Shown here: piece by piece, positions 1,639 through 24,726 of the stretch
How positions within the stretch are numbered: position 1 is the stretch's first letter
How the letters are laid out: the number at the start of each line of letters is the position of its first letter
Origin: a virus
Strand: one strand, 5' to 3'
Virus record (IMG/VR): IMGVR_UViG_3300023174_000156
Span: 1 to 64,000 of that record
DNA: 64,000 bases
The notes under the pieces: generated by a model
Told to the model about the DNA's origin: nothing
What the model saw: only the letters and a program-made list of their open reading frames with translations
Databases searched by the model: none
Made by a program: the position numbers and the translations under genes

Positions 1639-2598
1639 TTGGCTAACATAGTATTTCTTGGCAACTTTGAAGTGCCTTATAGTAGTGAGAATCATCATGC
1701 TAAGTCTTTAGAATCTCTTGGGCATACCGTGCAAAAATTGCAAGAAAAAAAAGCAGGCAGCACAGAAATATTAAACGCAGCATTAAACTCTAATCTATTC
1801 ATATGGGTACATACACATAGATGGCAAACTCCAGGATCTAGGTCTATGACTGATGTGCTAAAAGAATTAAAGGCTGCTAACATACCAACTATGACCTATC
1901 ATTTAGATTTGTGGTTTGGCATTGAGCGTGAAAAAGATTTAAAGGGTGATGATTTTTATACAAGCATAGGTCATTTTTTTGCTACAGACAAGTTGATGTG
2001 TGATTGGTTTAATGAAAACACACAGGTTAAAGGACACTTCTTGCCTGCTGGCGTATATGATAAAGAGTGTTATATCCATGAAGACTATGATCCACATAAT
2101 TTTGAAAACGATATTATCTTTGTTGGTAGCAGAGGATATCATCCTGAACATAAATACCGTCCACAACTAATAGATTTCTTGCGAAAAACATACGGTAAAA
2201 GATTTCTACATGTTGGTGGCGATGGAGACACTGGCACAGTTCGTGGAGATGCGCTTAATCGTATCTATGCAAAAAGCAAGGTAGCAATAGGTGATAGTCT
2301 TAACATAAACTTTAATTATCCATATTACACAAGTGACAGATTGTTTGAAAGCACTGGTCGTGGCGGCTTTACTATCTACCCTCGTATTAAAGGTCTTGAA
2401 GAATACTTTAAAGATGAAAATGAAATTGTATTTTATGAACACGGAAATCTTGAAGATCTAAAAAATAAGATAGATAAGTATTTGTTAGACGGGGTATCAA
2501 GAGAATCAATCAGACTAAACGGACATGAAAGAACTAAAAAAGAACATACATACGTCCATAGATGGGCAAACATACTAGAAGCCCTAAACATAAAATGA
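1639..2598 (+). CDS. GT-B glycosyltransferase, CgeB/YkvP-like
   Basis: The 319-residue protein starts with a Rossmann strand (NIVFLGNF). Its second half has the FVGSRGYHPEHKYRP and GRGGFTIYPRIKGLEEYF segments typical of the CgeB-like 'glycosyltransferase family 1' domain, where late Gly and acidic residues bind the nucleotide sugar. The start is a TTG with an AGAGGGG ribosome site; no in-frame ATG fits as well. It is the first gene of an eight-gene operon and shares an ATGA stop/start with the epimerase gene. It probably transfers a sugar to a virion or host-surface glycan. Confidence 0.8.
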   Translation: MANIVFLGNFEVPYSSENHHAKSLESLGHTVQKLQEKKAGSTEILNAALNSNLFIWVHTHRWQTPGSRSMTDVLKELKAANIPTMTYHLDLWFGIEREKDLKGDDFYTSIGHFFATDKLMCDWFNENTQVKGHFLPAGVYDKECYIHEDYDPHNFENDIIFVGSRGYHPEHKYRPQLIDFLRKTYGKRFLHVGGDGDTGTVRGDALNRIYAKSKVAIGDSLNINFNYPYYTSDRLFESTGRGGFTIYPRIKGLEEYFKDENEIVFYEHGNLEDLKNKIDKYLLDGVSRESIRLNGHERTKKEHTYVHRWANILEALNIK

Positions 2599-3479
2599 AA
2601 TATTTGGTTACAGGTGGTGCTGGCTTCATTGGATCAAACCTTGTTGATAGGTTAATTAGTCTTGGTCATGATGTTGTTTGTATTGATGATGAGTCTGCAG
2701 AATGCCATGAACAGTTCTATTGGAATGATAAAGCACAAAACTATAAATATGATATCTGTGACTATGACTTAATTGCACCACTCTTTAGTGGCGTTGACTG
2801 CGTGTTTCACGTTGCATCTGATGCAAGAATACAACCAGCAATATTAAATCCTAAAAAATCTATTCAATCAAATGCATTAGGAACAGCCAATGTTCTTGAA
2901 CTTTGTAGGATAAACAAAGTGGATAGGCTAATTTATTCAAGCACATCCTCTGCTTATGGTAAAAAAGCAATTCTTCCAAACCAAGAAATACAGCCCTCTG
3001 ATCCATTAACACCATATTCTGCTGCTAAAGTTTTTGGTGAAAACCTTGCAAAGGTTTATTATAATCTTTACGGATTAAAAACAATATCTCTTAGATATTT
3101 TAATGTTTATGGAGATAGACAACCATTAAAAGGTCAATATGCGCCAGTAATAGGATTATTTTTAAAACAATACCATGAAAGAAAACCTTTAACGGTAGTT
3201 GGAGATGGATCTCAACGCAGAGATTTTACTCACATATCAGACGTAATACAAGCAAACATTCTTGCATCTGAAGTTAAAAATGGGTTTGGTGAGGTATATA
3301 ACATTGGATATGGAAGTAACTACGCTATATTAGATATTGCCAATATGATATCAAATGATGTTAAATTTATACCGTCAAGAATTGGCGAGGTGCAGGAAAC
3401 TCTTGCATCTAATATAAAGTTTAAAGATTTAACTGGTTGGGAACCAAAAATTTCATTAAAAGATTGGATACAGCAATGA
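2595..3479 (+). CDS. NAD-dependent sugar epimerase/dehydratase (extended SDR)
   Basis: The GGAGFIGSNL glycine-rich NAD motif lies at residues 7-16. YSSTSSAYG carries the catalytic Ser/Thr, and PYSAAK holds the Tyr-x3-Lys pair. Length (294 aa) is normal for UDP-glucose 4-epimerase or dTDP-glucose dehydratase relatives. I choose the ATG of the ATGA overlap with the previous stop rather than an upstream in-frame ATG inside the preceding gene. It probably makes the nucleotide sugar used by the neighbouring transferases; the exact substrate is not evident. Confidence 0.88.
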   Translation: MKYLVTGGAGFIGSNLVDRLISLGHDVVCIDDESAECHEQFYWNDKAQNYKYDICDYDLIAPLFSGVDCVFHVASDARIQPAILNPKKSIQSNALGTANVLELCRINKVDRLIYSSTSSAYGKKAILPNQEIQPSDPLTPYSAAKVFGENLAKVYYNLYGLKTISLRYFNVYGDRQPLKGQYAPVIGLFLKQYHERKPLTVVGDGSQRRDFTHISDVIQANILASEVKNGFGEVYNIGYGSNYAILDIANMISNDVKFIPSRIGEVQETLASNIKFKDLTGWEPKISLKDWIQQ

Positions 3480-3985
3480 AAATTAATTTTGGATGTGGAA
3501 GCATACAGCCTGCTGACTGGATAAACATAGATATTGATCCTGAGTATAAAACGGAGCACAAAAATTTACACTTAATTCCAGACAATTCCTGTGATATTTT
3601 AGTTTCTCATGCAACAATTTGTGCAATACCATATCATGAAATTAAGGAAGCCTTACTAGAATTTAATCGTGTCTTAAAGCCTGGTGGTGTGGTTAGAATT
3701 AGTTTGCCAGATATTGTTTCTGGATTTGATGCATATAAAAATAATAATATTAACTTTTTTCCTAACTCTGAAGACAATATAGACAGACGTTTTTCTTCTT
3801 GGCTAACTTGGTACTCAACATCAGTATCTTTATTAACACATAAAGCATTAGAGTATAAGTTACATGATAGTGGATTTAAAAATATAACAAAAGTAAACTA
3901 TAAAGAAAGTGCACTATCAAACAACAAAATTTATGAACTTGACACACGGGAACATGAATTTTATTTTATGGAGGCAATAAAATGA
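3476..3985 (+). CDS. SAM-dependent methyltransferase (Methyltransf_11-like)
   Basis: MKINFGCGS at the N-terminus is the Gly-rich motif I for SAM binding (NFGCG). The NIDIDPEY acidic segment is motif II, and LLEFNRVLKPGGVVRISLPD matches the motif III/post-motif of the UbiE/Methyltransf_11 class. At 169 aa it is a minimal class I fold. The start is set by ATGA coupling to the epimerase gene. In this operon it may methylate a sugar. Confidence 0.8.
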   Translation: MKINFGCGSIQPADWINIDIDPEYKTEHKNLHLIPDNSCDILVSHATICAIPYHEIKEALLEFNRVLKPGGVVRISLPDIVSGFDAYKNNNINFFPNSEDNIDRRFSSWLTWYSTSVSLLTHKALEYKLHDSGFKNITKVNYKESALSNNKIYELDTREHEFYFMEAIK

Positions 3986-4689
3986 CAGAAATGGTTAAAG
4001 CAGTTTTAAATGGAGAGTTTGAAATGATATTGCCTAAACATCGTGCAGATAGACCAGACTGGTACCAGCCACATGGTTGGGAAAAATTAAGACTAAAATC
4101 AATGCATGAAAATATTGGTAGTGGAGATGTTGTTTATTATGTAGGTGCAGAAGAAGGAGAGTTTCCAGCACTATGTCAAATGTGGGGAGCAGAGGTAGTT
4201 TTATTTGAACCGAACCCAAAAGTATGGTCACACTTTCCATTGCTTTGGAGTGCTAATAATTTAGAAAAACCAATTGCTTGCATACCTGGATTTGCATCAG
4301 ACAAAGATAATAAACTTGCACGTATTTATTGTAATGAGTTTCCACCAGAAGTTAATAATGTTATTGAAACAGCACATGGGTTTAAAGAATTATATCTTGA
4401 GGGTGATACCTACGGTCAAATTACTATAGATTCTTGTGTATATAATCATAGCATTAAACCACCCACCGCCATTTCTTTGGACGTAGAAGGTAGTGAATGG
4501 AAGGTCCTAAAAGGGGCTGAGAGGGTGCTTAGAGAGCATAAACCTAAGATTTGGTTATCTGGACACCCTGAATTTATGTTGCAGCAATGGAACGAGGCTC
4601 TGCATGACCTTAGACAATGGATAAAGGGATTAGGATATAAAGAAACTCTTTTAGATTATCAGCATGAGGTACATTTGTTTTATGAATAA
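3982..4689 (+). CDS. FkbM-family methyltransferase
   Basis: VVYYVGAEEGEFPALC is the FkbM form of the SAM-binding motif, followed by the acidic EVVLFEPNP strand end. The late ISLDVEGSEWKVLKGAERVL segment, with Asp/Glu then Lys-Gly-Ala, is the most diagnostic FkbM signature. FkbM enzymes usually O-methylate sugars or polyketides. The start ATG overlaps the previous stop (ATGA) and its 3' end overlaps the deacetylase by 8 nt. Confidence 0.85.
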   Translation: MTEMVKAVLNGEFEMILPKHRADRPDWYQPHGWEKLRLKSMHENIGSGDVVYYVGAEEGEFPALCQMWGAEVVLFEPNPKVWSHFPLLWSANNLEKPIACIPGFASDKDNKLARIYCNEFPPEVNNVIETAHGFKELYLEGDTYGQITIDSCVYNHSIKPPTAISLDVEGSEWKVLKGAERVLREHKPKIWLSGHPEFMLQQWNEALHDLRQWIKGLGYKETLLDYQHEVHLFYE

Positions 4690-5299
4690 TTTAATATTTT
4701 GTGCACATGTAGATGATGCAATTTTTTCATTAGGTGATTATATTATTGATAGTAATGATAGTTTTACAATTGCAACTGCCTTTGCTGGCATACCAACAGA
4801 TCCTTCTGGGTATAAAAAACACACTATATTAAGACAAGAACATAATGAAGCCTGCTCAATGATAAATGTTAAAGTGATTAATGGAGATTTACTAGACGAT
4901 GTTTATGGAAAACAAAACGAAAATGATTTAATAGATTGGATAAAGTCTATAATTGTAAACTTTGATAACATCTATATTCCTCTTGGACTTCATCACCCAG
5001 ATCACATTTTTTTATCAAACACCTTGCTTAACTTAATAAAATATTTTAATAAAACATACTTTCTTTATGCTGAGTTGCCATATAGATTTTCATATCCAGA
5101 GTCATACAAAATAAGATTAAAACAGGTTGAATTAAATAATAATTTAGAAAATATTAACACTAACTTTACAAAAAACAAAATGAATATAATAAAACAATAT
5201 AATTCGCAGATAGCCTATGTAAATAATACATCAATCATAGATGAAGAATTAGTTAAAAATCTTATTACAGAAGAAAAGGTATGGAAGGTTTTAACATGA
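4682..5299 (+). CDS. PIG-L/LmbE-type deacetylase
   Basis: The N-terminal AHVDDAIFSLG replaces the usual (P/A)HPDD zinc motif, with His and Asp-Asp retained and Pro changed to Val. The second metal motif, HHPDH, is intact. The family removes N-acetyl groups from GlcNAc-containing glycolipids or from precursors such as mycothiol intermediates. At 205 aa it has the family's normal length. The start chosen is the internal ATG that overlaps the end of the FkbM gene; an earlier ATG in frame lies inside that gene. Confidence 0.82.
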   Translation: MNNLIFCAHVDDAIFSLGDYIIDSNDSFTIATAFAGIPTDPSGYKKHTILRQEHNEACSMINVKVINGDLLDDVYGKQNENDLIDWIKSIIVNFDNIYIPLGLHHPDHIFLSNTLLNLIKYFNKTYFLYAELPYRFSYPESYKIRLKQVELNNNLENINTNFTKNKMNIIKQYNSQIAYVNNTSIIDEELVKNLITEEKVWKVLT

Positions 5300-6144
5300 T
5301 TAGCGCATATCTTTACTCAGTTAAACAAGAAGACTGTGCTGCTGATAAATGGGATTACGGTTTATTAAAAGAATTTTTTAATAAAAACAATATTAAACCA
5401 GACAGGGTAACAACTTTACCCAGTATGGATAGAGCCTTTGTTGTTATTCCTGGACCACAAAACGTAGGCTTTGAAGATCAAATATCTGAAGAGTTAAATA
5501 AGATAAATAGGGTAGTTTTATTTATTACTGGGGATGAAAGTGCTACGTTTAATGTTGATAAAATAAAACATAATAATATTGAAATTTGGATTCAGTACCC
5601 GCACAGAAGGCATTCGCAATACAATAAGTTAGCACTAGGTGTGCCACAACACCTATCAAACAATTTGCCAGAATACCAAGATAAGTCATATGATGTATTT
5701 TTTTCAGGGCAAATAACACATCAGAGAAGGCGAGAACTTGCAACCGTCATGCCTGACATACCAAACTCTTTTTATAATCCAACCAATGGCTTTGCAGAAG
5801 GTTTAAATCCAAAATCATATTATAATAAAATGTTTTTATCAAAAATTGTTCCTTGTCCAAGCGGGGCTGAAGTAATAGACTCTTTTAGATTTTATGAAGC
5901 AATAGAAATGCTTTGTTTACCTTTGGGAGATAAATTAGATTCAAAAATGCAAAACACAGACTTTTTTAATTTTTTATTTGAAAATAATCATAAAATAAAA
6001 ACTTTTGAAAATTGGCGACGCCTGCCTGATTTGTTGCCTGAATTATTAAATAACTATACATTTGAAATGCATCAAATTGTTTGTTGGTGGATTAAATATA
6101 AAAGAGATTTATTTATTGAATTAATGAGGCAAGTAAATGCATAA
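5296..6144 (+). CDS. Exostosin-like glycosyltransferase
   Basis: The 282-residue protein carries YDVFFSGQITHQRR, KIVPCPSGAEVIDSFRFYEAIEMLCLPLG and nearby aromatic segments. These correspond to the nucleotide-sugar-binding half of exostosin/GT47-like proteins, in which the Cys-Pro-x-Gly, Ser/Phe-Arg-x-x-Glu and Pro-Leu positions are conserved. ATGA coupling to the deacetylase sets the start. The donor sugar is unknown. Confidence 0.7.
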   Translation: MISAYLYSVKQEDCAADKWDYGLLKEFFNKNNIKPDRVTTLPSMDRAFVVIPGPQNVGFEDQISEELNKINRVVLFITGDESATFNVDKIKHNNIEIWIQYPHRRHSQYNKLALGVPQHLSNNLPEYQDKSYDVFFSGQITHQRRRELATVMPDIPNSFYNPTNGFAEGLNPKSYYNKMFLSKIVPCPSGAEVIDSFRFYEAIEMLCLPLGDKLDSKMQNTDFFNFLFENNHKIKTFENWRRLPDLLPELLNNYTFEMHQIVCWWIKYKRDLFIELMRQVNA

Positions 6145-6898
6145 AAGAGATATAACAATTGTTATGGCTACATCTGTAATTCTCGATCATCCAAATACAA
6201 CAATGATAGAACAAACTATTAGTGATATTCGTGTTCACTTTCCAAATAATGAAATTATCATGCAAATAGATGGTCTTAGAGAAGAGCAGCAAGACCGTAA
6301 AAAAGATTACGATGAATATAAGAGTCGCATTTTGTGGAAATGTTTACATGAAGATAAAAACATACTACCATTTATATTTAAAGAACACAGCCATCAAACC
6401 AACATGATGCGTCAAACAATTAATGAAATTAAAACACCCCTATTACTTTATGTTGAAGGTGATGCTCCTTTAACTCCAGATACACCAATAGACTGGGATA
6501 AATGTTTAGATATGTTTGAATACAATAAAGCAAATACCATTCGTTTTCATTTTGAAGCACATATACCAAAAGAACATGAACATCTTATGTTTGGCTTAGA
6601 AGATGGCTTTATGAAAACTACACAATGGAGTCAACGACCACATCTAAGTAGAAAAAAATACTATAAAGATATTGTACTTCCAAGATGTAGGGATAAATTT
6701 TTTATAGAAGATACATTTCATGGAGCAATTCAAGATGACATATCTCCATATGACGTGTTTGATCAAGGAAATTGGGAAACACATAAACTTTGGATTTATC
6801 ATCCAGAAGGAAATATTAAACGTTCTTATCACTTAGATGGTCGCCAAGGCGGAAGAAAGTACACTTCCGATGATGATGTTTGGGGGTATAAAGAATGA
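6137..6898 (+). CDS. GT-A-like glycosyltransferase
   Basis: The protein begins with DITIVMATSVI, and a LLLYVEGDAPLTP segment fits the DxD-type metal site of family-2-like transferases (here EGD). It is 253 aa with no membrane segment, so it is probably cytoplasmic. It overlaps the exostosin-like gene by 8 nt and the last glycosyltransferase by 4 nt. Family assignment is by fold pattern rather than a strong signature. Confidence 0.6.
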   Translation: MHKRDITIVMATSVILDHPNTTMIEQTISDIRVHFPNNEIIMQIDGLREEQQDRKKDYDEYKSRILWKCLHEDKNILPFIFKEHSHQTNMMRQTINEIKTPLLLYVEGDAPLTPDTPIDWDKCLDMFEYNKANTIRFHFEAHIPKEHEHLMFGLEDGFMKTTQWSQRPHLSRKKYYKDIVLPRCRDKFFIEDTFHGAIQDDISPYDVFDQGNWETHKLWIYHPEGNIKRSYHLDGRQGGRKYTSDDDVWGYKE

Positions 6899-7932
6899 AA
6901 CTAGGAATTATAGCAAGATGTGACAATACTGGTCTTGGTAATCAGACTAAAGAGTTAGTAAAAATGTTAAATCCTGATAAAATTTTACTTATTGATTCAT
7001 ATTCTTTTAATAACAATAAACAATACCCGCAATGGTATGACGGATATAACGTAATAAAAACAATAAAGGGTATGCCTAGAACAAATGAGGTTCTTTCTTT
7101 TTTAGATGGTATTGATGTTGTTATAAGTTGTGAAACATTTTATCATTTAGATTTTATTGATATGGCAAGAAAGAGAAATATAAAAACAATATTACAATAT
7201 AACTATGAACTATTTGGAAATTTAGTTCATCCAGAATGGTTACTCCCAGATATATTATTGTCACCAAGTAGTTGGAATATAGATATTGTTGAAAAAAAAT
7301 TTGAATCAAAGTGCAAGGTATATCACCTACCACCACCAACAGATACATCATTATTTAATGCTGCAAGAGAAAATAACCTATCAAAAACCCATAAACGAAT
7401 ACTTCATATTGCTGGTAAAAAAGCAGCCAAAGATAGGAATGGAACTAATACTGTAGTAGAAATGCTTAAACATTCTAGTGCAGATTATGAACTTGTAATA
7501 GCAACACAAACCCCTCTAGACTTTCTAAACAAAGATAGCCGTTTAAAAATAAACAAAGATAACGTTAGAAATAGAGAAGATTTATACAACGGCTATGATG
7601 CCATGGTTCTTCCTAGGCGTTATGCTGGTCTTTGTTTACCTATGAATGAGGCTTTAATTTCTGGTCTACCCGTTTTTATGACAGATATATCTCCAAATAA
7701 TCAAATACTTCCAAGTGATTGGCTAATACATTCAAATAAAATTGGTGAATTTAAAACTAAATCAATGGTAGATATATATGAGGCTGACGCAATAAAATTA
7801 AGTAACACAATAGATAATTATATTAACAATGATAAAATAAATAAATATAAAAACATTGCAATAGAAATTGGATTTAATAATTTTTCAGTTGAAAACTTAA
7901 AAGATAAGTGGTTAAAGGTTATTAATGAATAA
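6895..7932 (+). CDS. GT4-like glycosyltransferase (GT-B fold)
   Basis: LGIIARCDNTGLGNQTKEL is a GT-B N-terminal domain start. The C-terminal half has ILHIAGKKAAKDRNGT and VLPRRYAGLCLPMNEALISGLPVFMTD, matching the donor-binding helix of GT4 enzymes (E-x7-E-like Glu, then Gly-Leu-Pro-Val). It is 345 aa. It is the last gene of the plus-strand glycan operon and ends about 50 nt before the convergent minus-strand unit. Confidence 0.82.
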   Translation: MKLGIIARCDNTGLGNQTKELVKMLNPDKILLIDSYSFNNNKQYPQWYDGYNVIKTIKGMPRTNEVLSFLDGIDVVISCETFYHLDFIDMARKRNIKTILQYNYELFGNLVHPEWLLPDILLSPSSWNIDIVEKKFESKCKVYHLPPPTDTSLFNAARENNLSKTHKRILHIAGKKAAKDRNGTNTVVEMLKHSSADYELVIATQTPLDFLNKDSRLKINKDNVRNREDLYNGYDAMVLPRRYAGLCLPMNEALISGLPVFMTDISPNNQILPSDWLIHSNKIGEFKTKSMVDIYEADAIKLSNTIDNYINNDKINKYKNIAIEIGFNNFSVENLKDKWLKVINE

Positions 7933-14618: not shown

Positions 14619-14625
14619 CTTATTG

Positions 14626-14697
14626 AGCCTCTTGTAGGATTTGAACCTACGACAACCCGCTTACAAGGCGGGTACTCTACCACTGAGTTAAAGAGGC
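14626..14697 (-). tRNA. tRNA-Thr (TGT anticodon)
   Basis: The minus strand folds with acceptor GCCTCTT/AAGAGGC, a D arm (CTCAGTGGTAGAG), anticodon stem CCCGC/GCGGG with loop CTTGTAA (anticodon TGT), and T loop GTTCAAATC. The 3' CCA is not encoded. It reads Thr ACA codons favoured in AT-rich genes. Confidence 0.92.
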
Positions 14698-14699
14698 AG

Positions 14700-14771
14700 T
14701 ACCCCCAAGGAGAATTGAACTCCTGTTACCACCGTGAAAGGGTGGTGTCATAACCACTAGACCATGAGGGC
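14700..14771 (-). tRNA. tRNA-Glu (TTC anticodon)
   Basis: Acceptor GCCCTCA pairs with TGGGGGT (including a G-U end pair, as in bacterial tRNA-Glu). The anticodon arm is CCACC-CTTTCAC-GGTGG, giving TTC, and the T arm AGGAG/CTCCT encloses TTCAATT. CCA is not encoded. It is two bases from the Thr tRNA. Confidence 0.92.
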
Positions 14772-14775
14772 GTGG

Positions 14776-14848
14776 AGCAGAAAACGGGACTCGAACCCGC
14801 AACATCTACCTTGGCAAGGTAGTACTCTACCAATTGAGTTATTTCTGC
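14776..14848 (-). tRNA. tRNA-Gly (GCC anticodon)
   Basis: Acceptor GCAGAAA/TTTCTGC, D arm with AATTGGTA, anticodon arm CTACC-TTGCCAA-GGTAG (anticodon GCC), and T arm CGGGTTCGAGTCCCG are all intact. CCA is not encoded. It lies just downstream of the HNH gene. Confidence 0.93.
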
Positions 14849-15363: not shown

Positions 15364-16401
15364 TCACGCAAACAAAAGATTAATTTGTCTTGTAATTCTA
15401 CCAAGTTTACTTAACAAAGAACTATATAAGTTATCTGATAAATATCTTTTAACTAATGCTAATACTCTACTTTCTAAAGTAGTAACTTCACTTGTGCTGC
15501 TAGATCTTAATTGAGCAGTTGAAGTATCACTAGTTGAAGTAGTTGCAGTTGAAGTATCAGTAGTTGCAGTGGTTGTATCGGTTATAGTACATTGACTAAT
15601 ACAAGCACCTGAGCCAGTATCCCAAGTTCTACCACTTGAATCTGTTGCTATTCCATTTTGAATAGTAGTTGTAACAGTTCCAGAATCATTTTTAATTGCA
15701 AATTGATTTTGACTATAAGTTACATTTTGACCATGCCAACCAGCAACATTTCCATCTGGTGATGCATTTGTTTGTGAAATAATACGACTTCCTACTGGAC
15801 ACCCCATATACTCAGATGTCATAGTCTTGTCATTACCTGCAAAGTAAGAACCACCAACAATAACCCCACACACATATCCAGTAGGATGTACTACTGCATA
15901 CCCATTTAATTGATCTGTTGTTGAAGCACTATTGTTTGTTGTTGATGATGAAGTTGATGATGTATTTGTTGATACCGTTCTAGTTTCAACAATTGGCGTA
16001 GGCGTTGGCGTAGGCGTAGGCGTTGGCGTAGGCGTAGGCGTTGGCGTAGGCGTTGGCGTAGGCGTAGGCGTTGGCGTAGGCGTAGGTGCTGGAGGAGGAG
16101 TTGGCTTTGGATCACAAATAGTATTTGTAGATGCTGACCAATTAGGACTTGCAACTGTTCCTAAATTTTTTCTTACATAACTAAATGAACAATAGGCAGT
16201 TGGTCCGTTAGGAACTCCATAATCATGTAGTCCTCTTACAGTTACATTAATTTCAGTTCCAGGATCGGAACACGGTAGTTGACCAAAAGTATTAACTCCT
16301 GCAACATTATAAGTACCGCTAGCACAAACCTCTGCATGTGCAGGAGATTGGATTAATGTTAAACCCAATACAGTTACAATTCCCACCACTATTTTTTTCA
16401 T
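15364..16401 (-). CDS. Secreted protein with Pro-Thr repeat stalk
   Basis: A signal peptide (KKIVVGIVTVLGLTLIQ, cleaved after SPAHA-E) leads into a Cys-containing domain of about 80 residues. A stalk of roughly 30 Thr-Pro residues follows, then Ser/Thr-rich linkers around a second domain with Cys pairs (GYVCGVIVGGSYF, then SGACISQCTI). No LPXTG or membrane anchor is seen; the C-terminus is a basic helix. The likely site is the cell surface or released outside. A possible decoy, adhesin or virion-associated protein. Confidence 0.7.
   Translation of the reverse strand: MKKIVVGIVTVLGLTLIQSPAHAEVCASGTYNVAGVNTFGQLPCSDPGTEINVTVRGLHDYGVPNGPTAYCSFSYVRKNLGTVASPNWSASTNTICDPKPTPPPAPTPTPTPTPTPTPTPTPTPTPTPTPTPTPTPIVETRTVSTNTSSTSSSTTNNSASTTDQLNGYAVVHPTGYVCGVIVGGSYFAGNDKTMTSEYMGCPVGSRIISQTNASPDGNVAGWHGQNVTYSQNQFAIKNDSGTVTTTIQNGIATDSSGRTWDTGSGACISQCTITDTTTATTDTSTATTSTSDTSTAQLRSSSTSEVTTLESRVLALVKRYLSDNLYSSLLSKLGRITRQINLLFA
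15995..16084. repeat. 15 tandem 6-bp units encoding Pro-Thr
   Basis: Fifteen consecutive ggcgtA/ggcgtT units occur in the order A-T-A-A-T-A-A-T-A-T-A-A-T-A-A, followed by a degenerate unit. On the minus strand every Thr is ACG and every Pro is CCT or CCA. The uniform codons and local GC richness suggest recent expansion by slippage. Unit gain or loss keeps the frame. Confidence 0.92.
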
Positions 16402-16648: not shown

Positions 16649-17173
16649 TTAAATGCTTACCACGTCAACTGGACCCATGCAGGTTGGACTAAATTTAATA
16701 GCAGCATTTACTGCACCTGTAACACGCTTCCTAGGATCTTTAGATTTTTCTGTTGCATTTAAATATCCATAGGCGTATTCAGCACCAGAACCCATAGCAA
16801 GGTAGTCAAGATTATATTTAGATAAAGACATATCTACAGCACTGTGTTCATATATTTGCCCTCTAACACAAACAATTAAACCTAAATCACCTTCTTTAGT
16901 AGTATCAACCCACCAGTCATTATAAAAATTTCTAAGTTGTTTAATAAACTTAGTTTGCATAAACTTATCTGTGTCTTTAATGTCTGGTACATAAGGATTA
17001 AAATTATAGCGAATACGTTCACCATCTAATGCGCCAGCATATCCTATTAGGTATGGACCAAGTTTCCAAACCTTTGGTGCTGTTAGTGCTAATATTGTTC
17101 CATCATCAGAAGCACCACGATCACCAGCCATATATACTTTGCCTTCATGACGAACTACAGCCAAGACTGTCAT
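16649..17173 (-). CDS. Proteasome/HslV-like Ntn hydrolase
   Basis: After removal of the initiator Met, Thr1 would be followed by VLAVVRHEGKVYMAGDRGAS. Asp17 and Lys33 fall exactly at the catalytic positions of proteasome beta subunits and HslV. The later AMGSGAEYAYGYLNATEKS segment matches the conserved Gly-Ser-Gly-x2-(Y/A) turn and helix. At 174 aa it is HslV-sized, and no propeptide precedes Thr. It may be a self-assembling protease or an N-terminal amidase of related fold; its target and any ATPase partner are unknown. Confidence 0.8.
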   Translation of the reverse strand: MTVLAVVRHEGKVYMAGDRGASDDGTILALTAPKVWKLGPYLIGYAGALDGERIRYNFNPYVPDIKDTDKFMQTKFIKQLRNFYNDWWVDTTKEGDLGLIVCVRGQIYEHSAVDMSLSKYNLDYLAMGSGAEYAYGYLNATEKSKDPRKRVTGAVNAAIKFSPTCMGPVDVVSI

Positions 17174-18614: not shown

Positions 18615-21221
18615 TTATCTCCTTCTTCTAGGTGCAGTAGCAATAATTACTTGACCAGCAATAATTGTTACTACTACAATATCTTCTGCTTTTTCACGTT
18701 CTGGAATAGACATATCAGCACCTATATTAAGTAGGGCTTTGCCTAATTCACATTTTTGCTCTTCTGTTAAACCTTCAATTGCTTCATCTGGATTAAAACA
18801 TCCAGCAATTGCTGCTGCTAATGCTGCTGGACTTTCTAATACAAGCAATGCTGAAGCCACTTCTGCAGTAATAACCACAGGATTACCATTTAAATCTTCT
18901 CTTACTTCTACTGGTATTGCTGGTGGAAGATCTCTATATTCAAGTCCCGCTGCTTTTATGGCTGATGCTTCAACTGGAGCGCCTTCGGCTGAAGTTACTA
19001 ATACATCTGCAACTAAATCTTTTTCTGCTAAAGTAAACTTGCCATCTTCAGCCAATGTTTCTGATAAATTAACAACCTCTGCAGTTGTTATTTTTCCATC
19101 TGCTAATAACATTTCTGTAATAAACTCTGCTTCTGCCTCTGTTAATCCGCCTTCCGATAATGTAGATGAAACCTCAGCAGCAATTTCTTCAGATACTTCT
19201 CCACCATTAGCAATTGCCTCTAAAACTTCTGCAACCTCAGAAGCATCTAAACCACTATCTGAAACTAAATTACTAACTATGTCTTGCAATTCTTCTACGG
19301 ATAAGGTATCATTATCTTGTGCAATTTCTTCAAAAGAATCCTGACTTTCTTCAAGAATATTTTCTAGTTCATCGTTGGATGAAGATTCATCAGATTCAGG
19401 TGTATCCGTTTCGGGAGATTCAGTTTCTTCGGAAGGCACTTCTTCGGCAGGGATATCTTCCACAGGAGTTTCCTCTACAGGAATCTCTTCTGTTTCTGTA
19501 CTCTCCTCTTCAGTTGGAATGGTCTCGTCTGGTAAAGTTTGTTCAGGCGCATAAATAAAAACTGGCTCTGGGGCTGGGGCTATAATAACTTCTTCTGGTG
19601 CGGGTATAGAAATAACAACCTCTGTATACTCACTTACAGGTCCAGACCAGTTAGCAATTCTAATAGTATAAGTAGCACCTTCTGTCAAACCAGTTAACTC
19701 AATAGACTCTGGAGCACCATCTGTATTATATGTACCACCTTCATATGGATTTTCTGCATTTGGATCATTTGTAACAACTTGATAAAACCAAGTATTTGCT
19801 GTGTACCCTGTTGGTAATTCAGGAGCAATAATTACTGTTGTGCCCTCAACTACTGGTTCTGCAAGTATTGGAGCGGGAGTTGGAATATTATTATTAATAG
19901 CACTTGTTAATGTTGTAGCCTTAGTATTTAATGTTGACTGCAGAGATGTTTTTGTTGATGTTGCTGTATTTAGTGCATTAGTTAATGAAGTTGTATTAAT
20001 AGCATTTATTGCTGATGTATTTGTAGTATTTTGAGAAACTACTGGTGTTAAACTTTGATTTAGTTGTGCAATAGTAGCATTTGCTGCATCAACAGCAGCC
20101 TGCACAGAAGAAGTGTTAGGGTCTACATACGGAGTAAATGATTGACCTTGACTTATTTGTCCAGCAAATCCAGAACTAGGGTTTGTATCTGTTATTGGAA
20201 TAATTGTTCCGTTAGTAGTTTCCCTATAATTAAATCTTGCTTGTTGTGGTATTGGACCTATAGCACTAACACTGGCTATCCATGCACCATCTGTTGGATT
20301 AACATCAGCATTAAATCTTATTTGAACCATTTGAGTGGAAGCATCTTGTTGTGGATATGGACGAACATCCCAAGCAATATCTAAACTTGTTCCAGTTGTT
20401 GCATAGGTAATTCCTGTTCCAGTACTCCAAGTTGTCCAGTCCCAGCCAGCAATAGAAACTGATGGGGCATTTGGTGTCTGGTAATAAATCCATCCTTGAT
20501 CTACTCCAAATGTTATTGTTGCATTTGATCCAACATATACGTTACTATATAGAGTTCCGCCCATTAATAAATTAAATGGAAGATTCATTCTTATTCCAGC
20601 ATCATCTACTCCAGCCAATACGTTGGTGCTAGTTCCAATAGTTGCTTGTAAATTATTAACTGCTGTTTGAGCATTATCAATTGCAATATTGGCTTGAGTT
20701 AATTCGGTTTGTGCGGTGGCTTGTGCTGTTGTTGCTGCTGTTTTTGCTGCAACTACTTCAGATATTTGAACCTGTGCAGTTGATGTATCAATATTGTTTA
20801 TAGAGGTTTGGGCTGTAACAATAGTATCTTTAGCATCTTGAACTACCTGCGAACTTTGGTCTACTGGTGTAACAGATAAGTTTATAGCATTAATAGTGGC
20901 TGTTGCCGTATCTACTAAGGCTACATTTGTTTGTGCTACTGAGACTGTTGCAGTTAGTGTTTCTACCGCTGCCTGAGCCTCTATTCTTTCAGCAACTGCT
21001 ACTGCTATAGTGGCTGTAGCAGTATCTGTGGCTGCAATAGCCTGTTGAACCTCTGTAGTAGCCGTTGCAAGGGCTGTATTAACTGCCTGTTGGGCAGGGC
21101 TAACAACAATTTGTTCTTGATTTTCTGTAGCATGAGCACGATCAGGAGACATAATTCCAAAAATTGTTAAGCATAGTCCCACCCCAAAGGCTAATATTAG
21201 TCTTCGTTTGAGATTATTCAA
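18615..21221 (-). CDS. Large exported Ala/Thr-rich surface protein (868 aa)
   Basis: A signal-anchor-like N-terminus (RRLILAFGVGLCLTIFG, then SPDRAHA) is followed in order by an Ala/Thr/Val-rich helical repeat region (about 40-200), a lectin-like or beta domain (about 205-350) with several Trp, a second helical stretch, a fibronectin-III-like domain (about 455-540), a very acidic Pro/Glu/Thr/Ser linker, and helical repeats (TAEVVNLSETLAEDGKFTLA). The end, IVVVTIIAGQVIIATAPRRRR, is a hydrophobic helix plus Arg tail, like a membrane stop without an LPXTG. The start is TTG with AGGAGA upstream. Likely displayed on the host surface or virion. Confidence 0.7.
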   Translation of the reverse strand: MNNLKRRLILAFGVGLCLTIFGIMSPDRAHATENQEQIVVSPAQQAVNTALATATTEVQQAIAATDTATATIAVAVAERIEAQAAVETLTATVSVAQTNVALVDTATATINAINLSVTPVDQSSQVVQDAKDTIVTAQTSINNIDTSTAQVQISEVVAAKTAATTAQATAQTELTQANIAIDNAQTAVNNLQATIGTSTNVLAGVDDAGIRMNLPFNLLMGGTLYSNVYVGSNATITFGVDQGWIYYQTPNAPSVSIAGWDWTTWSTGTGITYATTGTSLDIAWDVRPYPQQDASTQMVQIRFNADVNPTDGAWIASVSAIGPIPQQARFNYRETTNGTIIPITDTNPSSGFAGQISQGQSFTPYVDPNTSSVQAAVDAANATIAQLNQSLTPVVSQNTTNTSAINAINTTSLTNALNTATSTKTSLQSTLNTKATTLTSAINNNIPTPAPILAEPVVEGTTVIIAPELPTGYTANTWFYQVVTNDPNAENPYEGGTYNTDGAPESIELTGLTEGATYTIRIANWSGPVSEYTEVVISIPAPEEVIIAPAPEPVFIYAPEQTLPDETIPTEEESTETEEIPVEETPVEDIPAEEVPSEETESPETDTPESDESSSNDELENILEESQDSFEEIAQDNDTLSVEELQDIVSNLVSDSGLDASEVAEVLEAIANGGEVSEEIAAEVSSTLSEGGLTEAEAEFITEMLLADGKITTAEVVNLSETLAEDGKFTLAEKDLVADVLVTSAEGAPVEASAIKAAGLEYRDLPPAIPVEVREDLNGNPVVITAEVASALLVLESPAALAAAIAGCFNPDEAIEGLTEEQKCELGKALLNIGADMSIPEREKAEDIVVVTIIAGQVIIATAPRRRR

Positions 21222-21284: not shown

Positions 21285-21308
21285 GAGGGTAGAAATTAAT
21301 CTACCCTC
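21285..21308 (-). terminator. Terminator after the surface-layer-like gene
   Basis: GAGGGTAG and CTACCCTC form a perfect 8-bp stem with an 8-nt loop, followed on the minus strand by TTTTTTATT. A strong intrinsic terminator that isolates the highly expressed-looking surface protein gene. Confidence 0.85.
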
Positions 21309-21326
21309 AATTTTTATAAGGAGTTG

Positions 21327-22925
21327 TTAAGCCTTAACCTTTTTCTGAATCTTTAATACAAGATTAGTTAAGGTTGTGATTAATGTTTTAAGTTGTGCAA
21401 CGGTTACAGCCAATGCAGCGACAGCAGCAAGTGCTTGTGATGCTGAATCGGTTACTGTTGCAGTTGCAGACACTTTTACTTGACCTGCTGCTGGTAAAGA
21501 AGTTCCACCAGTTGCGCTGACAGTAACTGCACCTGCAGATAATGGCATGTAAACTTTGTAAGTTTTTACGCCATTTGCGTCAGTTGTAATAGATGTTGCA
21601 GTAATTGTGTCGCTTGATCCACCAAAGGAATAACTTGTAGTAATTCCTGTAGAGGCAAGTAGGTTAGCATATGTCTTTCCAGACAATACTGCACCTGTTG
21701 CATCAACTGGTGAAAGAGTAATTGTGGCTTGCTCTCCTGCTACGTAGTTTGCTTTATCAAAAGCCAACTTAATAGAAGCAACTGCAGCCTCTACACGCAC
21801 AGTTACTGTGTCTGCAGAAATTGTTCCACTTTTTACTACTACACCTGCTGAACCAGTTTTAACACCAGCCAAAGAGAACAATGCTTCACCATTAGAGATA
21901 GAAGCAATTGTTGCTGAATTGCTGATTACTGCTAAGTCTGCTGATGTTGCTGTTAATGTTCCTGCTCCTACAACTACGCCAGCAGCATCGTATGCTACGG
22001 CAGAAATTGCGTCTGCATTAGAACCTAAAGCAATTGTTGGCTTCTTTACAGTTGTAACAACTTTAGCAATATCGCCATAAAATGTTACTTTTTCTGTTGC
22101 CAAGATTACGCCAGATGCTGAGGTAAGTGTAATTGCTCCTACTCCAGATGTTCCATCAGCAAATACACCAATGTAACTTCCTGCAGGAATAACCAATGAT
22201 CTACCAAGACCAGAAATGGTTGCATGGTTTGTACCATGTCCTAACATACCTGCACCTGAAACAGTTGCTGTAATTGATTCTGAAGCAGAACCATTGGTAG
22301 CATTTTTTTGAGTTAATACAATAACTGCTGCAGCATCAGAAGACACAGCCTTTGAAGCATATACAGTTGCATCTGTTGTTGCTGAAATTGTTTCACCAGC
22401 ATTTAAAATAGATGTTGTATAAGCAGTTGATGCTTTAAGATCTGGAGCAGTAACGGTTACTGTCCATGTAAGAGCAGCAGATGTAACTGAGCCAGATGCG
22501 CTAGTTAATGTAGGAATAAATCTAACTACGTATGTTCCAGCAACGCTAGGCACGTAAAGTGATGCTGTCAATTTTGCAGTAACATAACCAGTAGTGTTAG
22601 TTGCTGGTGAAATTGATGCTGTTTTTGTATCTGATGATAACGCCACTGTTGCACTAGATGTTTCTGTAACAGCAAACTGTGGAACGCTAGCAGTAGATGG
22701 GGAAGACAACACTGCAGATATTACCGAAACGGTATCTCCAATTGATGTTCCCAAAAATGATACTGACACAACTGCTGTTGCAGTCTCGCCAGGATTGATT
22801 GTATCTGCTACTGCATCAATGCTAACAACGTCAGCATATACTGTAGCCTGTGTCGGAAGTGCCGACATCACGCCAAGCGTCAAGGCTGCAGCCAAGACTG
22901 TGGCAAGTTTCTTAAATGAATTCAT
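21327..22925 (-). CDS. Surface-layer-like secreted protein
   Basis: A signal peptide (FKKLATVLAAALTLGVMSAL, cleaved near PTQA) is followed by about 460 residues of beta-rich, Ala/Thr/Ser/Val-rich immunoglobulin-like repeats. A short helical tail (AALAVTVAQL then LTNLVLKIQKKVKA) ends the protein. From memory, this tail resembles the C-terminal anchor of acI actinobacterial surface proteins. With a single Met-poor, beta-rich body and a strong terminator it looks like a host S-layer-type gene captured by phage. Possible roles are cell coat substitution, superinfection exclusion or virion decoration. Confidence 0.72.
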   Translation of the reverse strand: MNSFKKLATVLAAALTLGVMSALPTQATVYADVVSIDAVADTINPGETATAVVSVSFLGTSIGDTVSVISAVLSSPSTASVPQFAVTETSSATVALSSDTKTASISPATNTTGYVTAKLTASLYVPSVAGTYVVRFIPTLTSASGSVTSAALTWTVTVTAPDLKASTAYTTSILNAGETISATTDATVYASKAVSSDAAAVIVLTQKNATNGSASESITATVSGAGMLGHGTNHATISGLGRSLVIPAGSYIGVFADGTSGVGAITLTSASGVILATEKVTFYGDIAKVVTTVKKPTIALGSNADAISAVAYDAAGVVVGAGTLTATSADLAVISNSATIASISNGEALFSLAGVKTGSAGVVVKSGTISADTVTVRVEAAVASIKLAFDKANYVAGEQATITLSPVDATGAVLSGKTYANLLASTGITTSYSFGGSSDTITATSITTDANGVKTYKVYMPLSAGAVTVSATGGTSLPAAGQVKVSATATVTDSASQALAAVAALAVTVAQLKTLITTLTNLVLKIQKKVKA

Positions 22926-22941
22926 TCTTCTCCTTATTAGT

Positions 22942-24726
22942 TTATATTAAGTTTAGTTTATCAAGAAAATCCTTAACATCGTTAGGCATTTCTCGATTAT
23001 CTAATTCTACCATACGTTGCTGCTTTTCTGCAAGTCGTGTTGCAGAACTCCATGTATGGACATCTATCTCTGTATTATTAGTCTTTGGCGTATGTGAAAT
23101 TGCTGAGAATACCGCTCCACAAACAGCATCAGCCAAATCTTTAGATTTTTTACGTGGATGATCTACCCTATTACCTTTCATTATTTTTAATTCTGACATT
23201 TCTTCTAATAATAATGGAATCATTGGCATTGCAACACGCTCTTCATAAATCATCATTGCTAAATCTTCATAGTGTTTTTTAGCAACTGAGACCGTCTCTG
23301 TTCTAATTCCAACAGCCTGTAACTCATTTTGAATATCAAAAGATTGCCAACGATCAAAAGACACCATACCAATATTAAGACCTTCTCTACGCAAATTAAT
23401 AATCCATTGTTTTACTTCTGATAAATTTACTGGTCCCTCTGCCCTTGGCTCCCACCAAGCAACGGCATCAACAACAACAATAGGGGCTACCTGCTCATAG
23501 TCTTTAATAACTTGAATATTAACCCACTTATCAACATGAGCAATAGCAACAGCACACTTGTCATGTTTTTGTGCAAGGTCAGCATGAATGTAATATATTT
23601 TTTCTGGATCAGGCTTAAAGGTTTCATCAAACCTTCTAAAAGAATCTATAGGATTTCTTGTATTCATACATTTTTCTAACTTATCTTTTTGTTTAAAAAA
23701 CGCATCTGATGCATATGTAGGTACACAAGCAAAACGCATCATGGCATCTCCTAAATCTGTATAGAATGCTAATTTAAAATCATCTATTTTGCGAGTAGGA
23801 TTTACTTCCCATGTTGGTCTTTTAAGTGCTAAAATTTTGGGAACTTTATATGAAATAATATTATCTTCTTCCCAACTAATTTCAAATTGATTGTTTATAT
23901 CGTTATGTGGTAGATCTTCATTCATAATAAAAATATGTTTCTTTTCTATTGTTTCTTTTTCTGCAATTACATCTTCATATCTTTTAGAAATAAAGTCTCC
24001 TTGATACCGTGGGAAAGAAAGTAAAACTACCTTTCCTAAATCTGGAAAACGAGAATCTACAGATCCACGAAACGCTTTATAAATATTTTCTGCAGTTTTA
24101 CCTTGTTCATTGCCAGTGCCAACCTCAGATGCAAAACCAGAAATCTCATCAAGCACTGCAAGTAATAAGTTTAAACCCTCATGAGATTCTCTTTCAGAGT
24201 GACCTGAATAAACTGTAATTGATTTATCAAACTCTACAGAATCTGCCTTAGCATTATACTTACCAGCAAACCATGGTGATTTTTCAATCTTTGTTTTAAA
24301 ACCTTTAAAGAAAACATTTTTTGCTTGTTGTGCATTAATAGCAACGTTAATTAAATCTATTGCATCTCCACTTGGTTTTCCAAAATATCTTGCAGGATCT
24401 TTGAGACATAATAACTTATAAACAATATAAGCACAAGCAACAGTAGAGGTAAAATCTTTACCAGATCCCTTGCCCAACTGTAAAATAATCTCATTTTTAG
24501 TATATTTATCATAATACCTTGCCCCTTCTACAGATCCATACAATTCTTGTAAATCTTCTCTTTTATATATTTGACTCATTGCCTCTACAATGTCATATTG
24601 AATAGATGATAAGGGTGGTTGTCCTAAATAATCAGAAGACTCAACAAATGTTTTTGCGTCTACTGGTTTTTCTTCAAATTGATTTTCTTTTAATACCTCA
24701 AGAAAATCATTGAACATCGTGGACAA
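22942..24726 (-). CDS. terL: Terminase large subunit
   Basis: Walker A LGKGSGKD (about residues 83-90) and Walker B LLLAVLDE (about 188-195) form the packaging ATPase. The C-terminal nuclease has YYIHADLAQK, VSFDRW and KDLADAV, giving the RNase H-like acidic triad. It is 594 aa and overlaps the small subunit gene by 20 nt. It is placed far from the portal gene, downstream of replication genes. Confidence 0.92.
   Translation of the reverse strand: MSTMFNDFLEVLKENQFEEKPVDAKTFVESSDYLGQPPLSSIQYDIVEAMSQIYKREDLQELYGSVEGARYYDKYTKNEIILQLGKGSGKDFTSTVACAYIVYKLLCLKDPARYFGKPSGDAIDLINVAINAQQAKNVFFKGFKTKIEKSPWFAGKYNAKADSVEFDKSITVYSGHSERESHEGLNLLLAVLDEISGFASEVGTGNEQGKTAENIYKAFRGSVDSRFPDLGKVVLLSFPRYQGDFISKRYEDVIAEKETIEKKHIFIMNEDLPHNDINNQFEISWEEDNIISYKVPKILALKRPTWEVNPTRKIDDFKLAFYTDLGDAMMRFACVPTYASDAFFKQKDKLEKCMNTRNPIDSFRRFDETFKPDPEKIYYIHADLAQKHDKCAVAIAHVDKWVNIQVIKDYEQVAPIVVVDAVAWWEPRAEGPVNLSEVKQWIINLRREGLNIGMVSFDRWQSFDIQNELQAVGIRTETVSVAKKHYEDLAMMIYEERVAMPMIPLLLEEMSELKIMKGNRVDHPRKKSKDLADAVCGAVFSAISHTPKTNNTEIDVHTWSSATRLAEKQQRMVELDNREMPNDVKDFLDKLNLI

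Follow-up and report, generated by a model that had tools for sequence, protein, structure and literature searches.

A conserved phage gene slot for exchangeable homologues of the surface-coat protein of acI-type freshwater actinobacteria

Phages change the surface of infected cells in several ways. Superinfection-exclusion lipoproteins and envelope proteins, such as T5 Llp, Ltp of Streptococcus phage TP-J34, and Cor of phi80 and N15, are exported and block a receptor or DNA entry directly, whereas phage glycosyltransferases bring about serotype conversion by changing the sugars that phages see. Surface-layer (S-layer) proteins are a further point of contact: SlpA is a phage receptor in Clostridioides difficile (PMC10100898), and Melnitz, a lytic phage of marine OM43 bacteria, carries a putative S-layer gene (Gene_23) that its authors propose protects from superinfection (PMC9004378). 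The acI actinobacteria are among the most abundant freshwater bacteria, and cultured isolates such as IMCC25003, IMCC26103 and IMCC19121 have genomes of 1.354, 1.457 and 1.506 Mbp (PMC5301498). They lack CRISPR, and their first cultured phages, E7 and F5, are 39 kb and differ in size and description from the virus analyzed here (PMC10202952).

We examined a 64,000-nt stretch (hereafter, the window; positions 1 to 64,000 of the 68,395-base IMG/VR record IMGVR_UViG_3300023174_000156), in which an earlier note, made from sequence alone, had pointed to a captured host-type surface layer gene. The gene compares with the systems above as follows. Exported as we infer, it would work like the superinfection-exclusion proteins by changing receptor access, but it would do so by overlaying or replacing the coat with a homologue of the host's own coat protein; compared with serotype conversion, a protein coat rather than a sugar change would be supplied. 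Melnitz is the only precedent we found for a phage S-layer gene with this proposed role, and no exchange slot or host-locus homology is mentioned in the passage describing it. We found no description of a coat-protein slot of this kind in the open-access literature, a search that did not extend to subscription papers or preprints, and a swappable slot that mirrors host alleles appears to be new.

The slot gene, its predicted product and its surroundings

The record encodes terminase, portal, head protease, DNA polymerase and helicase genes, and its terminase is about 54% identical to those of Streptomyces phages such as Karimac (Stanwilliamsviridae), in which the gene following the terminase is an HNH endonuclease. 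In our window this position is occupied by a 532-aa open reading frame with an ATG start, beginning 16 bases after the terminase stop. The features of the locus are:

21327–22925, minus strand: type-1 slot gene, encoding a 532-aa predicted exported surface protein homologous to the acI-type chromosomal surface protein
22845–22925, minus strand: predicted signal peptide, residues 1–27, with an MNSFKK start of the kind shared by slot proteins of related phages
21471–22835, minus strand: predicted beta-rich Ig-like ectodomain, residues 31–485, about 45% identical to the best host ectodomain
21333–21446, minus strand: predicted C-terminal coiled coil, residues 494–531, a host-type tail ending KIQKKVKA
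21285–21308, minus strand: intrinsic terminator (GAGGGTAGA-TTAATT-TCTACCCTC-TTTTTT), conserved behind type-1 and type-2 slot genes
22930–22935, minus strand: ribosome-binding site AAGGAG
22942–24726, minus strand: terminase large subunit, the fixed upstream neighbor of the slot
18615–21221, minus strand: 868-aa predicted exported protein of unknown function, the downstream neighbor of the slot

The observation made in the earlier note is confirmed, with two additions: the gene lies on the minus strand, which the note had not stated, and the terminator stem, given there as 8 bp, is 9 bp. The product has a signal-peptide-like start by hydropathy (MNSFKKLATVLAAALTLGVMSALPTQA). AlphaFold2 predicts a chain of beta (Ig-like) domains and a single C-terminal helix, residues 494–531 (mean pLDDT 78.5, pTM 0.54); this helix shows a heptad pattern (a = V/I, d = L), contains no cysteine and reads as a coiled coil rather than a membrane helix. 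The terminator is a perfect stem with 5 G-C pairs, a 6-nt loop and T6, located 18 nt past the stop codon, and its fold energy of −19.2 kcal/mol compares with −8.0 ± 2.3 for shuffled sequences (z −4.8). A promoter scan returned no more hits than expected by chance.

Searches for known families gave little. The protein matches no Pfam, NCBIfam or PHROG family, although Big_1 is hit weakly by 11 of 36 relatives, and a sequence search of the PDB found no match. Among the best PDB fold matches are the S-layer proteins SbsB, SbsC and EA1 of Bacillales, likewise chains of Ig-like domains, but all fold matches are generic multi-Ig proteins at TM-scores near 0.2, supporting the class of protein and not its identity. 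No S-layer family model, SLH domain or other curated family matched either the phage or the host protein in Pfam or NCBIfam. By tblastn, none of 50,697 annotated phage records, a collection that may not include Melnitz, has a homolog.

The surroundings contain additional genes. The 868-aa neighbor has no family or annotated-phage match, and its relatives fall into close (70% or more identity) and distant (about 30%) versions that go largely with the tail class of the slot protein; a host origin for it has no real support, with one weak partial hit in 151 genomes. Near the lysis genes lie a 345-aa protein with a signal-peptide-like start and no Pfam or PHROG match (15364–16401, minus strand), a third possible exported protein, and a proteasome/HslV-like peptidase family protein (phrog_1040) next to the endolysin (16649–17173, minus strand). 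Three tRNA genes in a row (Thr, Glu, Gly; 14625–14848, minus strand) are about 80% identical to tRNAs of almost all genomes of the host order and are uninformative as a clue to the host. On the opposite strand, a glycan island (1639–7932, plus strand) encodes glycosyltransferases, a nucleotide-sugar epimerase (phrog_540), methyltransferases including FkbM, and a PIG-L deacetylase. The host surface gene also lies next to glycan genes, but its locus epimerase is only about 31% identical to that of the phage, and a link between the two is a guess.

Homologs on host chromosomes and exchange at the phage locus

We next asked whether the tail belongs to actinobacterial surface proteins, as the earlier note had stated. 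A search with the tail found actinobacterial MAGs, and the pattern KIQKKVKA-stop occurs in 46 of 296 genomes of the order, whereas the reversed-pattern control occurs in none. The full protein finds relatives in 60 of these 296 genomes (E down to 1.6e-60, about 45% identity, spanning query residues 3–504 and 3–532 in several genomes), a lower bound because few candidates were scored per genome. We infer that the order is Ca. Nanopelagicales and that the hosts are acI. The relatives lie mostly in a conserved locus comprising a sigma factor, the surface protein, a Wzy_C (O-antigen ligase family) gene, an NDP-sugar dehydrogenase and an epimerase. Since this arrangement is found on complete chromosomes (single contigs include those of 1,353,947, 1,456,516 and 1,506,415 bp) and the neighborhood is not phage-like, we rejected the possibility that the host homologs represent phage contamination of MAGs. 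A reciprocal search of viral contigs with the host protein found no relative, as that search requires exact short peptides.

The host proteins (for example L083, L091 and L101; L numbers denote the phage and host loci or genomes compared) share with the phage protein full-length homology, a predicted signal peptide, an Ig-like ectodomain and a predicted C-terminal coiled coil with the same KIQKKVKA end. The phage copy is shorter (532 against about 600–690 aa), starts with MNSFKK instead of MST(K/T)T..FKR, and its ectodomain belongs to a separate clade. Its tail is 87% identical to that of host L091, while its ectodomain is 45% identical to its best host match.

To determine what related phages carry at this position, we fetched loci by terminase alone. 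In 70 of 70 with enough sequence, a predicted exported protein with an MNSFK-type start lies right after the terminase, and its ectodomain is one of three types: 33 are type 1 (ours), 16 type 2 and 21 type 3. Where enough sequence was present, the same terminator hairpin was found behind 13 of 26 type-1 and 12 of 12 type-2 genes, and it was found behind 5 of 17 type-3 genes. Near-identical neighbors can flank different types; in L176 the terminase is 96% and the 868-aa protein 78% identical to ours, while the slot is type 2. Type 2 has relatives in four host genomes. In L255 and L256 these occupy exactly the sigma/Wzy_C position that elsewhere holds type 1, in L254 the sigma factor and sugar genes are present but Wzy_C is not, and in L257 the gene is at a contig edge. 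Host and phage slots thus draw on the same two alternatives, and the comparison of L254, L255 and L256 with L258–L269, in which one of two surface-protein types lies next to the same sigma factor, raises the possibility of phage-driven allelic replacement. Type 3 has relatives in two or three host genomes, at another place.

Tails are exchanged independently of ectodomains. Phage L210 and L242 have 94% identical ectodomains but 67% identical tails of different class, and at least 8 changes of tail class are needed on the phage ectodomain tree. Class-matched host tails are 71–87% identical (medians) and other host tails 46–49%, while ectodomains remain at 36–39% in both comparisons. This comparison is partly circular, since classes were defined on the tails, and host tails are well conserved among themselves (78–93%). 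Base composition is a more independent sign, though confounded in part by phage phylogeny: flanks of tail-A phages have 35.0% GC and those of tail-B phages 39.0% (medians), against 39–41% for tail-A host loci and 44–48% for tail-B/C host loci. That hosts with the short tail (39–41% GC) are Nanopelagicus-like and the others Planktophila-like is an inference from genome size and GC only. Tails D and E have no good host match, and the D tail (WNKKNPKAK) was not found in 201 host genomes. Tail modules also cross ectodomain types, as type-3 slot proteins of about 340–410 aa (L203:6134, L213:7806-8873, L215-L239) end in the same WNxKNPKAK tail as some type-1 proteins. Type-2 proteins of L176 (4450-6141) and L200 end in CVKGKxxKKVTxxxPVCPxGYKKK instead of the coiled coil end, which looks like another exchangeable C-terminal module.

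Phylogenetic analysis placed 33 of 34 phage type-1 ectodomains in one clade with its own long stem, whereas the phage sequence L183 groups with host L113. A single phage clade, and with it a single capture of type 1, is rejected by the AU test (p 0.003; a quick tree in which long branches are present), so there were probably at least two captures of type 1, besides type 2. Within the phage clade dN/dS is 0.18, indicating purifying selection, against 0.04 for the terminase and 0.19 for the 868-aa protein. Host ectodomains are very diverse (medians 36–42% within a tail class), as expected of a surface under phage attack.

A proposed role at the surface of the infected cell

Taken together, our preferred explanation, held with moderate confidence, is that the gene is a phage version of the variable surface protein of acI-type actinobacteria, kept in a dedicated exchange slot between the terminase gene and the 868-aa protein gene. 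In this view, the signal peptide sends the protein out of the infected cell, the coiled coil, matching the tail of the host's own protein, lets it join or replace the host coat, and the differing ectodomain gives the cell a different outer face. The likely benefit would be that competing or sister phages no longer adsorb to the infected cell or its debris. Our analysis establishes the homology to the host surface protein, the host-type tail, the exchange of both tails and ectodomains within a slot, the selective constraint and the terminator; Sec export, co-assembly with the host coat through the coiled coil, the altered outer face and any effect on adsorption are inferred, with the export signal and coiled coil resting on sequence and structure prediction only. 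"Same anchor, different face" is the pattern that this mechanism would need.

The interpretation offered in the earlier note is thus partly supported. Its identification of a host-type surface-protein gene with an acI-type tail, in a phage and with its own terminator, holds. Two findings had been named in advance as capable of overturning it, and neither was obtained: host proteins do share the tail, and the absence of homologs from the 50,697 annotated phage records searched means that these are not virion fibers of unrelated phages. That the protein forms a surface layer (a lattice), or that it remodels cells, excludes other phages or hides virions, is not shown, and hiding virions is the least likely of these, because a Sec-exported protein leaves the cytoplasm where virions assemble. 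"Captured" is correct, but the capture is old, given the long stem of the phage clade, and the slot is a standing exchange site rather than a one-off.

Alternative explanations merit consideration. The protein could be exported to the surface or released but serve another purpose, such as keeping the coat intact while the host stops making its own, protecting infected cells from grazers, or acting as a soluble decoy for receptor-binding proteins of other phages. This is possible though unlikely: the anatomy is the same, and a lytic phage that shuts down its host might need to keep the coat, yet simple maintenance does not predict exchange among unrelated ectodomain types between near-identical neighbors, and a decoy does not need a host-matched coiled-coil tail. 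Less likely still is a virion protein whose host-like coiled coil pairs with the host coat protein and helps adsorption. Many phage structural proteins carry Ig-like domains, viral fold matches (again generic) include tail proteins, and the match to the host tail and exchange of tails with host lineage would also suit an adsorption module. However, the predicted signal peptide is kept in all copies, the gene lies next to the terminase and lysis cassette, away from the structural operon at 38–64 kb, and no PHROG or annotated-phage homolog exists among those searched. Finally, although this is a host-type gene in a metagenomic virus record, a functionless passenger acquired by chance or misassembly is contradicted by the 224 viral stretches that encode relatives, the filled slot in 70 of 70 terminase loci, the dN/dS value, a GC3 equal to that of the phage's terminase (18.8 and 18.7) and the separate clade of phage copies.

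A broader reading, which we regard as tentative, is that a whole group of freshwater actinobacterial phages keeps a dedicated, recombining coat-swap cassette that mirrors the alternative alleles of the host's surface locus, with conserved rails (signal start and terminator), an exchangeable outer face and a host-matched coiled-coil anchor. Such a cassette would be a protein-coat counterpart of phage serotype conversion and would point to the host coat protein as a main phage receptor in very abundant freshwater bacteria. To our knowledge the phage receptors of acI actinobacteria have not been described, and acI hosts and some of their phages are now in culture. A phage slot that mirrors the alleles of one host surface locus names a candidate receptor locus and may give a sequence-based link between phage and host lineage through the tail type. 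If the proposed function holds, phages of these bacteria carry swappable copies of the host coat, a little-documented form of competition between phages.
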